Shown: in pieces, positions 25,201 to 30,281 of the stretch | Numbering within the stretch: position 1 is the stretch's first letter | How the letters are laid out: the number at the start of each line of letters is the position of its first letter | Source: Gordonia bronchialis DSM 43247 | GTDB lineage: Bacteria > Actinomycetota > Actinomycetes > Mycobacteriales > Mycobacteriaceae | NCBI RefSeq assembly: GCF_000024785.1 | Contig: NC_013441.1 | Location: forward strand, 2,356,001-2,420,000 | Direction of reading: 5' to 3' | DNA: 64,000 nt | The notes under the pieces: generated by a model | Told to the model about the DNA's origin: nothing | Seen by the model: the letters and a program-made list of their open reading frames with translations, nothing else | Database searches by the model: none | Program-made: the position numbers and the translations under genes

Positions 25201-26988
25201 GTGACGTCCGCCGAGAACTCCGTAGCCGGTGTCCACGCAGCCGGTGTCCACGCACCTGCCGGGGAGCCGGTCACCGCCCGGGTGTCCTCGGGCCCCCCGC
25301 TGCGTGCCTGGCAGCGCCGGGCGCTGACCAAGTACCTCACCCGCCGCCCGCGGGATTTTCTCGCGGTGGCGACACCCGGGGCCGGCAAGACCACCTTCGG
25401 TCTGCGGATCGCACGCGAGTTGCTCGACGATCGCACCGTCGACCAGATCACCGTGGTCGCGCCGACCGAACACCTCAAGCACCAGTGGGCGCAGGCCGCC
25501 GCCCGGGTCGGAATTGCCCTGGACTCGCGGTTCAGCAACTCCGCGGGCCAGACCAGCTCGGATTTCGACGGGGTCGCGGTCACCTATGCCCAGGTCGCCG
25601 CCCATCCCGCCCGGCACCGGGTGCGCACCGAGAACCGGCGCACGCTGGTCATCCTCGACGAGATCCACCACGGCGGCGACGCCAAGTCCTGGGGTGAGGC
25701 CATCCGCGAGGCGTTCTCCGACGCCACCCGACGCCTCGCCCTGACCGGTACCCCGTTCCGGTCCGACGACTCGCCGATTCCGTTCGTCACCTATGAGCCC
25801 GAACCGGGCGGCGTGCAACGCTCTCGCGCCGACCACACCTACGGGTATGCCGACGCGCTGGCCGACGGAGTCGTGCGGCCGGTGGTGTTCCTGGCGTACT
25901 CGGGGCAGGCGAGCTGGCGGACCAGCGCGGGCGAGGAGTTCACCGCCCGCCTCGGTGAGCCGTTGTCGGCCGAGCACACCGCCCGCGCCTGGCGGACCGC
26001 GCTCGACCCGCACGGTGACTGGATTCCGGCGGTCCTGACCGCGGCACACACCCGTCTGGGACAGCTCCGTGCCTCCGGTGTGCCCGATGCCGGTGGGCTG
26101 GTCATCGCCACCGACCAGACCACCGCGCGCGACTACGCCGAACTGCTGGCCTCGATCACCGGGAAGGCCCCGACGATCGTCCTGTCCGACGACCCGAAGT
26201 CGTCGTCGCGGATCGCCGAGTTCGCCACCTCCGACGACGAATGGATGGTCGCGGTTCGCATGGTGTCCGAGGGTGTCGACGTGCCCCGGCTCGCCGTCGG
26301 GGTGTACGCGACCAGCGCGTCGACTCCCTTGTATTTCGCTCAGGCGATCGGCCGGTTCGTGCGGTCACGGCGCCCGGGTGAGACGGCGAGCGTTTTTCTC
26401 CCATCGGTCCCGGTCCTGCTGGATCTGGCGAGTCAGATGGAGGCCGAGCGCGATCACGTGCTCGGCAAGCCGCATCGGGAGAGCGACGGCCTCGACGACG
26501 CGTTGCTCGAGGATGCGAACAAGCAGAAGGACGAACCCGGCGAGGACGAGAAGGGTTTTCAGTCACTGCACGCCGACGCCGAACTCGACCAGGTGATCTT
26601 CGACGGGTCGTCGTTCGGCACCGCCACCTTCGCCGGCACCGAGGAGGAGTCGGATTACCTGGGGTTGCCGGGGCTGCTCGACGCCGATCAGGTGCGGGCG
26701 CTGTTGCGTCGACGCCAGGACGATCAGGTCGCCGCGCGCACGACGGCAGCCGCCGGGAACAAATCCGATGCCGGCGCCGGGGCGCAGACTCCGCGCAGCA
26801 CGGGGGAGAATCTGCATGCCCTGCGCAAGGAACTGAACAGTCTGGTCGCCATGCATCACCACCGCACCGGTAAACCGCACGGCATGGTGCACAACGAGTT
26901 GCGCACCCGCCTCGGTGGTCCGCCCACCGCGATGGCGAGCGCCGACCAGCTACGCGAGCGCATCAACGCGCTACGTGAGTGGCGCTAG
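25201..26988 (+). CDS. DEAD/DEAH-box helicase (SF2, XPB/UvrB-like)
   Basis: A 595-residue SF2 enzyme. Motif I is ATPGAGKTTFGLRIA (about residues 57-71), motif II reads ILDEIHHGGD and motif III LTGTPFRSDD. The C-terminal RecA-like domain has VRMVSEGVDVPRL (motif V) and YFAQAIGRFVRS (motif VI). An extra C-terminal region contains YLGLPGLLDADQVRALLRRR and a helical tail NLHALRKELNSLVAMHHHRTG. The GTG at 25201 is used. The N-terminus contains the repeat AGVHAAGVHAP from a short tandem DNA duplication. It ends at a strong bidirectional hairpin. Substrate unknown. Confidence 0.87.
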   Translation: MTSAENSVAGVHAAGVHAPAGEPVTARVSSGPPLRAWQRRALTKYLTRRPRDFLAVATPGAGKTTFGLRIARELLDDRTVDQITVVAPTEHLKHQWAQAAARVGIALDSRFSNSAGQTSSDFDGVAVTYAQVAAHPARHRVRTENRRTLVILDEIHHGGDAKSWGEAIREAFSDATRRLALTGTPFRSDDSPIPFVTYEPEPGGVQRSRADHTYGYADALADGVVRPVVFLAYSGQASWRTSAGEEFTARLGEPLSAEHTARAWRTALDPHGDWIPAVLTAAHTRLGQLRASGVPDAGGLVIATDQTTARDYAELLASITGKAPTIVLSDDPKSSSRIAEFATSDDEWMVAVRMVSEGVDVPRLAVGVYATSASTPLYFAQAIGRFVRSRRPGETASVFLPSVPVLLDLASQMEAERDHVLGKPHRESDGLDDALLEDANKQKDEPGEDEKGFQSLHADAELDQVIFDGSSFGTATFAGTEEESDYLGLPGLLDADQVRALLRRRQDDQVAARTTAAAGNKSDAGAGAQTPRSTGENLHALRKELNSLVAMHHHRTGKPHGMVHNELRTRLGGPPTAMASADQLRERINALREWR

Positions 26989-27556: not shown

Positions 27557-28510
27557 CTAACCGGCGGCCGCCGCGGTCGGACGGCCCTCGGCGACCGCCT
27601 CCTGCTGTTCGCGCAGTTCGCTGACCGCGTCCGAGGACTCGCTCTCCCGATCGCGCAGGTACGCACGCAGGGAGTAGGCGAAGGCTGCCGCCCAGGCGAT
27701 GCTGATGACCACGTAGAACGCGGTGCGCACCGGCGCCGACGCGTCGATCAGATCGCTCTTGAGCAGGCTGCGGGCGTTGGTCAGAACGATCAGACCACCC
27801 ACCGAGGCACCGAGCAGTCGCGGCGGGATGTGCCGGACCAGCCAGGCAGCGATAGGGGCCGCGACGACGCCGCCGACGAGGATGGCACCGACCCACGCGA
27901 AGTTGATGCCCTGCGATCCGAGGCTGAACAGGAATCCGAGGCTGGCCGCGACCGCGATGATGAACTCGCTGGTGTCGATCGATCCGATGACCTTGCGCGG
28001 CTCGAGGCGTCCGCTGGCCAGGATCGCCGGGGTGCCCACCGGGCCCCATCCGCCGCCGCCGGTGGCGTCGACGAAGCCGGCGACGAAGCCGAGGGGACCG
28101 AGGAACCGCTTACGCAGCGGCTTGCCCAGGTGATGACGAGGGATGCCCTGGAAGGTGAAACGCAGCAGGATGTAGAGGCCGAGAAGCAGCAGGATCACGG
28201 CCATGACCGGGGCAGCCGCCTCGGTGGACAGCTGCGACAGGATGGTGGCACCCAGGAAGGCGCCCACGGCACCGGGGATCGCGATCCGCCGCACCACACG
28301 CCAGTCGACGTTGCCGAACTTCCAGTGCGAGACACCCGATACGAGGGTGGTCCCGATCTCGGCGAGGTGCACGGTGGCCGACGCGGCGGCCGGGTTGGTG
28401 CCGATCGCCAGGAGCAGCGTCGTCGTGGTGACGCCGTAGGCCATGCCGAGGCTGCCGTCGACGAGTTGGGCGGCAAAACCGACCAGGGCGATGAGAACGA
28501 TGGTGCGCAT
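27557..28510 (-). CDS. TauE/SafE family sulfur-anion permease
   Basis: The 317-residue protein has about eight membrane helices in the two-repeat TauE layout. The first half carries AAQLVDGSLGMAYGVTTTTL and the second GFVAGFVDATGGGGWGPVGTP; both are the family's paired signatures. Members move sulfite, sulfoacetate, thiosulfate or sulfate. The start is the ATG at 28510. Upstream lies a short leader reading frame ending MLCR-stop, of the cysteine-responsive type found before actinobacterial sulfur genes, and this supports a sulfur substrate. Direction (uptake or export) cannot be read from the sequence. Confidence 0.88.
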   Translation of the reverse strand: MRTIVLIALVGFAAQLVDGSLGMAYGVTTTTLLLAIGTNPAAASATVHLAEIGTTLVSGVSHWKFGNVDWRVVRRIAIPGAVGAFLGATILSQLSTEAAAPVMAVILLLLGLYILLRFTFQGIPRHHLGKPLRKRFLGPLGFVAGFVDATGGGGWGPVGTPAILASGRLEPRKVIGSIDTSEFIIAVAASLGFLFSLGSQGINFAWVGAILVGGVVAAPIAAWLVRHIPPRLLGASVGGLIVLTNARSLLKSDLIDASAPVRTAFYVVISIAWAAAFAYSLRAYLRDRESESSDAVSELREQQEAVAEGRPTAAAAG

Positions 28511-28593
28511 GTGTCAGGGGCTTTCGATGCCGGTGCCGCTGCGGGCAGAAGTCGTCGTGGGGGACAGGTACGACGGATGAACCGTCGGGGCAC
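28511..28593 (-). promoter_or_regulatory. Candidate attenuator between leader peptide and TauE gene
   Basis: The 83-nt spacer can form a 6-bp hairpin (28571-28587, cgacgg/ccgtcg). Alternatively, ggcacc at 28589-28594 can pair with ggtgcc at 28532-28537. The second pairing begins at the leader stop, so a paused ribosome would prevent it. This is the logic of an attenuator, but the folding was only inspected by eye. Confidence 0.45.
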
Positions 28594-28647
28594 CTATCGA
28601 CACAGCATCGACGCGACCCGCACCAGATCGACCGCACGGCGCGACAC
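28594..28647 (-). CDS. Sulfur-responsive leader peptide
   Basis: A 17-residue reading frame, VSRRAVDLVRVASMLCR from a GTG at 28647, ending TAG, 83 nt before the TauE start. It closely matches the recurring actinobacterial leader peptide pattern LxxRRxVDLxRVAS-x-LCR, which precedes cysteine and sulfate genes. A Cys codon sits just before the end, so ribosomes would pause there when cysteine is low. No clear ribosome site is seen, so translation could be leaderless. This gene is too short for routine annotation. Pattern recalled, not searched. Confidence 0.72.
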   Translation of the reverse strand: MSRRAVDLVRVASMLCR

Positions 28648-28782
28648 CAGAAGTGGCGTCGAGGGTCGCGGATGGACCCAACTCCCCAAATGCGGCATTC
28701 GGACATCGTACGAGGTCCGAGCCCTCGATCGGGAATCGTCAACGGCCGATGAAATCCGGCTGGCCACAAAGGTTGACATGCG

Positions 28783-28808
28783 CACTCGCCCGTGGTTGCG
28801 GGCGAGTG
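28783..28808 (-). terminator. Hairpin terminator after sigA
   Basis: A perfect 10-bp stem (cactcgcccg / cgggcgagtg) with a 6-nt loop starts 3 bp past the sigA stop. It separates sigA from the leader-peptide/TauE unit downstream. A mixed T-containing stretch follows on the minus strand. Confidence 0.7.
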
Positions 28809-28811
28809 GCA

Positions 28812-30281
28812 TCAGTCCAGATAGTCGCGCAGGACCTGCGACCGCGACGGGTGGCGCAGCTTCGACATCGTCTTGGACTCGATCTGCCGGATGCGCTCGC
28901 GGGTGACGCCGTAGACCTGACCGATTTCGTCGAGGGTTCGCGGCTGACCATCGGTCAGGCCGAAACGCAACCGGACCACGCCGGCCTCCCGCTCGGACAG
29001 GGTCTCGAGTACCGACTGCAGCTGATCCTGGAGCAGGGTGAAGCTCACCGCGTCCACGGCGACCACGGCCTCGGAGTCCTCGATGAAGTCTCCGAGCTGG
29101 CTGTCACCCTCGTCGCCGATGGTCTGGTCCAGCGAGATGGGTTCCCGAGCGTACTGCTGGATCTCCAGCACCTTCTCCGGAGTGATGTCCATCTCCTTCG
29201 CGAGCTCCTCCGGGGTGGGTTCGCGACCCAGATCCTGGAGCAGTTCACGCTGGATGCGGCCCAGCTTGTTGATCACCTCGACCATATGGACGGGGATGCG
29301 GATCGTGCGCGCCTGGTCGGCCATGGCGCGGGTGATCGCCTGCCGGATCCACCAGGTGGCGTACGTGGAGAACTTGTAACCCTTGGTGTAGTCGAACTTC
29401 TCGACCGCGCGGATCAGACCGAGATTGCCCTCCTGGATCAGATCCAGGAACGCCATACCGCGGCCGGTGTAGCGCTTGGCCAGCGAGACCACCAGTCGTA
29501 GGTTGGCCTCGAGCAGATGGTTCTTCGCGCGGTTGCCGTCGCGGGAGATCCAGTTGAGGTCGCGCTTCTGGGCCGTGGTGATCTTCTCGCCGGACTCCAT
29601 GATGCGGCGCAGCCGTTCCGTCGCGAACAGGCCGGCCTCGATGCGCTTGGCGAGCTCGACCTCTTCCTCGGCGTTGAGCAGTGCGACCTTGCCGATCTGC
29701 TTGAGATAGGCGCGCACCGAGTCGGCGGAGGCGGTGAGTTCGGCGTCCTTGCGGGCCTGCCGCAGCGCCTCGGACTCCTCTTCGTCCCAGACGAAGTCAC
29801 CGGCCGTCTTCTCCGGTGTGGCGGTCTCCTTGGCGGCCGCGGACTTGCCCGTGGCGGTCTTGGCCGTATCGGCGGCGACGACGGTGACCGAGTTGTCCTC
29901 GTCCTCGTCGTCGGCGTCCTCGGCGGTGGCGTCGTCGGTGTTATCGTCGTCGACCTCGAGGTCGTCGTCGATCTCCACGTCGTCGTCGAGTTCGGTGTCG
30001 GGGGCGTCGATGTCGTCGATCGAGTCCGGGCCGTCCTCGACGTCACCGTCGGGTTCGCCGGCCGGACCCGCGGCAACCTTCTTCGCCGCCTTCTTGGCGG
30101 GTGCCTTCCGAGCGGCCTTCTTGGCCGGCGCCTTCCGGGCGGCCTTTTTCGCCGCCTTCTTGGCGGGTCGTTGTGTGGATGTCTCGTCGCTCGCGGCGTC
30201 GGCCGACGGATCCGCGGTGGTCTCGACCACGGCGTTCTCGTCGATCCCGGCGTCCGCATGACGGGTCTTGGTGGCTGCCAC
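28812..30281 (-). CDS. sigA: Primary sigma factor SigA (HrdB/RpoD)
   Basis: The housekeeping sigma factor, 489 residues. A long N-terminal extension has Lys/Ala-rich repeats ([20 protein letters not shown]) and then acidic Asp/Glu stretches, as in other actinobacterial SigA proteins. Regions 1.2-2.4 run from [21 protein letters not shown] through [20 protein letters not shown]. Region 4.2 is [26 protein letters not shown], and the C-terminus [10 protein letters not shown] is diagnostic. The GTG at 30281 has GAAAGG upstream. A hairpin follows the stop. It lies downstream of ppgK on the same strand, with 232 bp between for its promoter. Confidence 0.98.

Follow-up and report, generated by a model that had tools for sequence, protein, structure and literature searches.

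A conserved leader peptide with a fixed UGU codon, likely a cysteine-responsive attenuator, precedes a TauE-type permease gene in Gordonia bronchialis

Polycysteine leaderless short open reading frames (ORFs) of mycobacteria were reportedly described by Canestrari and co-workers (2020, Mol Microbiol). The available portions of PMC9094748 and PMC13236596 cite that study, and sequestration of the ribosome-binding site has been reported for mycobacterial polycysteine ORFs, as far as the partial text of the sources goes. Cysteine attenuation by a conserved upstream ORF before cysA2 was proposed by Shell (2015) in the accessible part of PMC4633059. In the literature that we searched, mostly outside subscription journals, no report of TauE as the target of a cysteine leader peptide was found. 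Here we describe a leader of this general type upstream of a TauE permease gene in a 64,000-nucleotide stretch of Gordonia bronchialis DSM 43247 (NC_013441.1, positions 2,356,001 to 2,420,000; hereafter the window, in whose numbering all positions are given).

The presumed regulated gene (27557..28510, minus strand, ATG at 28510) encodes a 317-residue TauE/SafE (TSUP) permease that belongs to PF01925 by sequence (E 1.7e-44). A first-pass annotation had placed a 17-residue frame 83 nt before this start, and the frame is indeed found there, reading GTG...VSRRAVDLVRVASMLCR-TAG from 28647 to 28594 on the minus strand and followed by an 83-nt spacer (28511..28593, minus) that is C-rich and G-poor in composition. 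The same annotation had assigned the frame to an actinobacterial leader-peptide family on account of a VDLxRVAS core and a late cysteine codon, and these attributions hold: the core is present, the cysteine codon, UGU, occupies 28600-28602 two codons before the stop, and the leader, at 27.7 bits, exceeds the curated cut-off (27 bits) of the NCBIfam model NF042934 ('putative leader peptide'), matching profile positions 1-19, the whole length, with a 72-residue open frame holding the leader as query. The leader is co-directional with the TauE gene and lies 83 nt 5' of its start, the placement that NF042934 calls for. It also matches the Ms5788A family with an E-value of 2.4e-5, but at only 23.9 bits against a cut-off of 45, and the frame matches the Cys-rich Ms4527A leader family below that family's cut-off.

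A six-frame scan of the 5.29-Mb genome gives four places at E<=1 (3.8e-5, 3.8e-4, 0.0025 and 0.87), the TauE leader being the best of them. The threshold is a loose one, at which matches also appear in 6 of 14 control genomes, none above the cut-off, and the fourth place is treated as noise. The second place (L002, E 3.8e-4) lies upstream of a siroheme sulfite/nitrite-type reductase, which we take to be the sulfite reductase SirA; among NCBIfam models it matches those of nitrite and sulfite reductases best, all below their cut-offs, and cysT/cysW-type genes of this genome lie some 6-8 kb from it. The third (L003, E 0.0025) precedes a sulfurtransferase-like protein, presumably CysA2, for which the model matches are again below cut-offs. 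These two other supported leaders bear out the sulfur context that had been proposed for the locus. The TauE leader belongs, as an ordinary representative, to a regulator family already described, and its target gene is an uncommon one.

Few orthologues had been obtained in an earlier search of relatives (31 genomes); among 59 Gordonia genomes, a permease match at E<=1e-20 is present in 23. Alignment of the region upstream of TauE in Gordonia, as the first-pass annotation had suggested, finds the leader frame kept in 22 of the 23 orthologues, the exception (L030) being a divergent Gordonia permease copy, 68 percent identical. Over the 17 codons of the conserved core, LVSRRAVDLVRVASMLC (28600..28650, minus), which is supported by the NF042934 match together with this comparison, the 22 Gordonia leaders give a pS of 0.400 and a pN of 0.124 (dN/dS ~0.24), and the order is reversed in the two shifted frames, where pN exceeds pS. 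Selection acts at the peptide level of the leader, and the short ORF upstream of the permease is confirmed as real and above chance. A six-frame search of the genus brings just 5 of these 22 leaders up to the NF042934 cut-off, lists 12 more at E<=0.01 and leaves 5 unlisted, so that most of them would escape this model.

The 17-codon frame is the 3' end of a longer ORF of 34 residues, MPHLGSWVHPRPSTPLLVSRRAVDLVRVASMLCR, which extends from ATG 28698 to TAG 28594 (28594..28698, minus). TACGAT, a probable -10 box, is positioned 6 nt 5' of this ATG (28705..28710, minus), and a TANNNT box 6-7 nt 5' of an in-frame start (ATG or GTG) whose frame stays open as far as the core recurs in 21 of the 22 Gordonia leaders (L026 being the one without it), against 0.5 of 22 expected from dinucleotide shuffles. 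Because of this recurrent spacing, we consider that the leader probably starts at ATG 28698 as a leaderless ORF of 34 codons, and that the start at GTG 28647 assumed in the first-pass annotation is probably wrong. No sigma-70-consensus site was found in 28450-28850 by a consensus scan. The N-terminal lengths of the leaders vary, and only the C-terminal core is kept. That the ORF might be a chance product of a GC-rich intergenic region is a reading with which its score, barely above the NF042934 cut-off, would agree; the 22/23 conservation, the dN/dS ratio and the leaderless layout leave that reading with practically no probability, however, and it is in effect refuted by the conservation.

Further upstream, a sigma-70-type factor gene identified by sequence search ends at 28812 on the minus strand, and a GC-rich hairpin, CACTCGCCCG..CGGGCGAGTG (28783..28808, minus), is seen by eye just 3' of it. 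Inspection by eye also reveals a TTGTCAAGRTTTGTGC-like block that recurs upstream of the leader promoter, at about 28762-28778 (minus) in the window and in other Gordonia, and this block is a possible regulator site. Elsewhere in the window, ARAGORN calls a tRNA-Arg at 26157-26235 (minus) within a helicase ORF of the opposite strand, which is probably a false call.

For named orthologues of the permease the best 80 were kept. Among these, the leader is present in 37 of 38 members of a Geodermatophilaceae clade and also before TauE in one Quadrisphaera contig (L093). No leader was found within 700 nt upstream of the orthologues from Rhodococcus, Micromonosporaceae, Streptomyces and Intrasporangiaceae in this set, and none was seen for the Blastococcus orthologue L063, which groups within a set of leader-bearing relatives. 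The Quadrisphaera leader escaped the regular expression and was recognised by eye; when the 330 nt upstream of the 34 orthologues with no regular-expression match were inspected by eye for Cys-ending frames, L093 was the only one with a leader, and the other 33 form the control set of orthologues used below. On a permease tree of 93 sequences the leader label requires at least four changes, implying that the pairing of leader and permease arose or was lost repeatedly. A ATCGATCTGGTAGACAT-like block appears, by eye, to be conserved just before many Geodermatophilaceae leaders, and in Modestobacter altitudinis (L045) a dyad, CCTACC-N5-GGTAGG, is found at the same place.

A class-wide search covered 148 genomes, and 110 leaders from 73 genomes (107 of them distinct) were examined among the matches listed, these being 30 loci and 80 further ones taken by going down the list, with six listed places passed over. 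None of the 110 has a gene resembling the TauE permease in its flanking stretch downstream (tblastn E 3.6 at best), a comparison in which more distant PF01925 proteins may have been missed, and TauE is on this count an uncommon target of the leader. In two cases (G091:C251:3248-3485 and G199:C520:3768-3939), two family leaders stand head to head on opposite strands, with 127 nt and 67 nt, respectively, between the matched cores, and look as if one divergent control region were common to both.

The most interesting part of these leaders is their putative sensor cysteine codon (28600..28602, minus, in the window), which is fixed as UGU. The TauE set comprises 59 distinct leaders, 22 from Gordonia and 37 others that all fall in the Geodermatophilaceae clade (one is labelled Bacillus), identical copies, including all the named Gordonia loci L031-L041, having been merged before counting. 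The codon is UGU in 59/59 of these leaders, in the Quadrisphaera leader, in 29/29 leaders of the genus loci L111-L139 (six being TauE leaders already counted) and, at position 20, in all 107 distinct class-wide leaders (L140-L249), although these counts are of related sequences and do not represent independent events. No codon was favoured in assembling the TauE set because permease homology and an amino-acid pattern were the criteria for including its members, and codon choice is likewise unscored by the profile used to find the class-wide leaders. At other positions in the class-wide leaders, cysteine is encoded by UGC in 47 of 51 cases at position -7 and in 40 of 47 at -2, and the few codons at the remaining positions are mixed, all three at -19 being UGU; when all 110 leaders are considered from four codons ahead of the core as far as the stop, the cysteine codons other than the sensor number 127 UGC versus 20 UGU. 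In TauE leaders of the Geodermatophilaceae clade the other cysteine codons are UGC at both -4 (34/34) and +3 (27/27), and 27 long frames of the window with high GC3, which serve as an approximate proxy for genes, contain 22 TGT versus 65 TGC. The base after UGU is C in 57/59 TauE leaders and 85/110 class-wide leaders, and a single UGU is present from core to stop in every one of the 22 Gordonia TauE leaders.

An invariant Asp precedes the sensor codon by nine codons, and an invariant Arg precedes it by six. Residues R7, D11 and R14, together with the sensor Cys, are invariant in 107/107 class-wide leaders, an invariance that is partly built in because the leaders were found by profiles scoring these residues, and the codons of R7, D11 and R14 vary. 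Invariant residues with varying codons are what would be expected of a peptide that acts within the ribosome. Selection at the peptide level would also be seen if the ORF made a functional small protein whose position before the permease is incidental, but only the C-terminal core is kept while N-terminal lengths vary, the same core precedes different genes, and UGU is fixed at the level of the codon; we regard a small-protein function as very improbable.

Base pairing was rejected as the cause of the fixed UGU, no excess complementarity of the UGU window being seen downstream or upstream in three sets. Decoding is the preferred explanation. The window contains one tRNA-Cys(GCA) gene; if this is the sole tRNA-Cys, UGU would depend on G-U wobble for its decoding. 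Perhaps the whole actinobacterial leader family consists of codon-specific arrest peptides that sense cysteine through one obligatory wobble codon, UGU, the trigger being slow G-U decoding by tRNA-Cys(GCA), although we are more inclined to doubt this proposal than to accept it. If it were true, codon identity and the nascent peptide would together halt the ribosome, and one codon would replace the classical run of hungry codons. The fixed UGU points, in any case, to a family rule not foreseen by the hungry-codon model of attenuation, and no report of a fixed UGU in cysteine leader peptides was found in the literature searched, most subscription papers lying outside that search.

We consider it likely that the TauE leader is a cysteine-responsive attenuator, of a kind already known from mycobacteria and other actinobacteria, that has been recruited to a TauE permease probably importing a sulfur source, and we infer that the leader is translated, that it responds to cysteine and that arrest takes place at UGU. 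RNA polymerase would start at or next to ATG 28698, giving a leaderless mRNA in which the first ORF encodes the 34-residue leader peptide. With ample cysteinyl-tRNA the ribosome would pass the single UGU and leave at the stop two codons further on, and the permease would be poorly expressed. When cysteinyl-tRNA is scarce, the ribosome would instead halt on UGU, with the conserved R-x-x-V-D-L-x-R in the exit tunnel, and the permease would be expressed. The presence of only one Cys codon, with no tract, is a counterpoint to reading the TauE leader as an attenuator. As to how arrest might be coupled to expression, the leader stop-codon region in Geodermatophilaceae can pair with the Shine-Dalgarno sequence of the permease, which a stalled ribosome would set free; in Gordonia, Rho-dependent termination in the C-rich spacer, blocked by the stalled ribosome, would be about equally likely.

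Predictions of RNA structure bear on this last step. The first-pass annotation had proposed two mutually exclusive structures in the spacer, and these do not rise above chance (z = -0.73 for the spacer and z = -0.91 for leader plus spacer); single-sequence folds are no better than shuffles. Conserved RNA structure in Gordonia was also rejected because RNAalifold, given 22 sequences, returned only a short hairpin inside the leader, the ribosome-binding site lying outside any consensus fold. A consensus scan of 28450-28850 found no terminator-like site, including at the hairpin at 28783..28808, and an intrinsic-terminator attenuator of the trp type was discarded since the scan revealed no terminator hairpin with a U-run between leader and permease. 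An Rfam scan of five loci at E<=1 produced one match, which is below the gathering score and located elsewhere in L058, and a PDB sequence search yielded three weak matches (E 0.02-0.03) to other enzymes.

The probable ribosome-binding site of the permease is GAAAG at 28521..28525 (minus), a motif found within 25 nt of the permease start in 21 of the 22 Gordonia sequences, with GAGAG in L018. Translational attenuation, in which the site is sequestered by leader RNA until a ribosome stalling on UGU disrupts the duplex, was examined with a model that computes the cost of opening the site both for free RNA and for RNA on which a ribosome occupies the Cys codon. For the 37 leaders of the Geodermatophilaceae clade the mean relief is 2.08 kcal compared to 0.17 kcal in shuffles, 13 of the 37 lying above all 15 shuffles, although related sequences are not independent cases. 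The leader stop region of Geodermatophilaceae (such as CUGACUCC) also faces GGAGUCAG at the permease in at least several sequences. In the window, UCGAUGC can pair with GCAUCGA beside the ribosome-binding site, as it can in the nearest relative, L006, and the relief computed for the window sequence is 1.7 kcal, a value equalled by 2 of 15 shuffles. The 22 Gordonia sequences show essentially no mean relief, however (0.12 kcal versus -0.07 kcal in shuffles, with 1/22 above all shuffles), the UCGAUG/CAUCGA complement occurs in only 4 of them (L005, L006, L021 and L022), and no consensus fold covers the site. We therefore give sequestration as the coupling step somewhat less than an even chance.

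A second way of coupling is Rho-dependent attenuation of transcription, in which the C-rich spacer binds Rho after normal termination of leader translation and is shielded by a ribosome held at UGU. Spacer C/G ratios of 1.77 for the 22 Gordonia sequences and 1.91 for the 37 of the Geodermatophilaceae clade, and of 1.56 for the first 60 nt after the stop of the 110 class-wide leaders, exceed the value of 1.17 obtained for the pooled 100 nt upstream of the 33 orthologues that have no leader. Before the core, the class-wide ratio is 0.90 (86 sequences) and 1.03 (109 sequences), and it is 1.15 at 200-500 nt. The lack of a terminator-like site in the spacer is also consistent with a role for Rho. 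On the other hand, this proposal has composition as its basis, and the leader-free orthologues are an imperfect control, three of the 33 (L053, L103 and L107) being as C-rich as the leader spacers with ratios of 1.7 or more. A part for Rho is accordingly a tentative suggestion that falls a little short of an even bet, and the choice between translational and Rho-dependent coupling in Gordonia is about even.

Whichever coupling applies to the proposed attenuator, the permease most likely imports a sulfur source, with sulfate as a first guess. The TSUP protein CysZ of C. glutamicum has been reported to take up sulfate in the available text of PMC5840216, where function prediction within TSUP is nevertheless called not feasible, and the accessible part of PMC11535334 describes sulfate uptake by a TauE protein of P. 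fluorescens, TK06_RS10770, that rescues E. coli delta-cysA. CysW is above cut-off in 53 of the 59 Gordonia genomes. Five genomes that lack it with no evident contig break (G011, G038, G042, G055 and G067) all possess TauE with the leader, against a base rate of 22/59, but these five are close to one another on the permease tree, so that the absence of CysW represents one or few losses; in G059, CysW may be cut off because a CysT-like gene lies at the contig end. SulP-type permeases are present in 57/59 Gordonia genomes, meaning that other routes exist and that sulfate import by TauE is not forced. The leader gives an orphan TauE permease a substrate class that is open to testing, and it extends the genes presumed to be under cysteine control in Gordonia and Geodermatophilaceae by a transporter.

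Compared with described systems, the TauE leader resembles uORFC-8-2, the cysS leader of Rhodobacterales, where likewise a short ORF with Cys codons lies upstream of a cysteine gene, but according to the available text of PMC8632094 that leader has two tandem Cys codons with UGC dominant, terminates in a U run as in an intrinsic terminator and belongs to a different phylum. CysZ (PMC5840216) and TK06_RS10770 (PMC11535334), as described in the parts of these papers to hand, are members of the same permease superfamily with roles in sulfur assimilation, a likeness that is at the superfamily level. With respect to the NF042934 cis_reg_atten family, the TauE leader is above the cut-off with a full-length match, although its score is borderline and 17 of the 22 Gordonia TauE leaders lie below the cut-off. 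The mycobacterial polycysteine ORFs, to the extent that the partial sources describe them, differ in having a tract of Cys codons where the TauE leader has one, and in their targets, which here is a TauE permease; the sequestration of the ribosome-binding site reported for them is unsupported in Gordonia on average, but is seen on average in the predictions for the Geodermatophilaceae clade. Like those ORFs, as far as these same sources go, the TauE leader is probably leaderless and first in its transcript, carries its Cys codon near the end and precedes a presumed sulfur-type target, and the Gordonia genome has further leaders preceding genes for a siroheme reductase and a sulfurtransferase-like protein.
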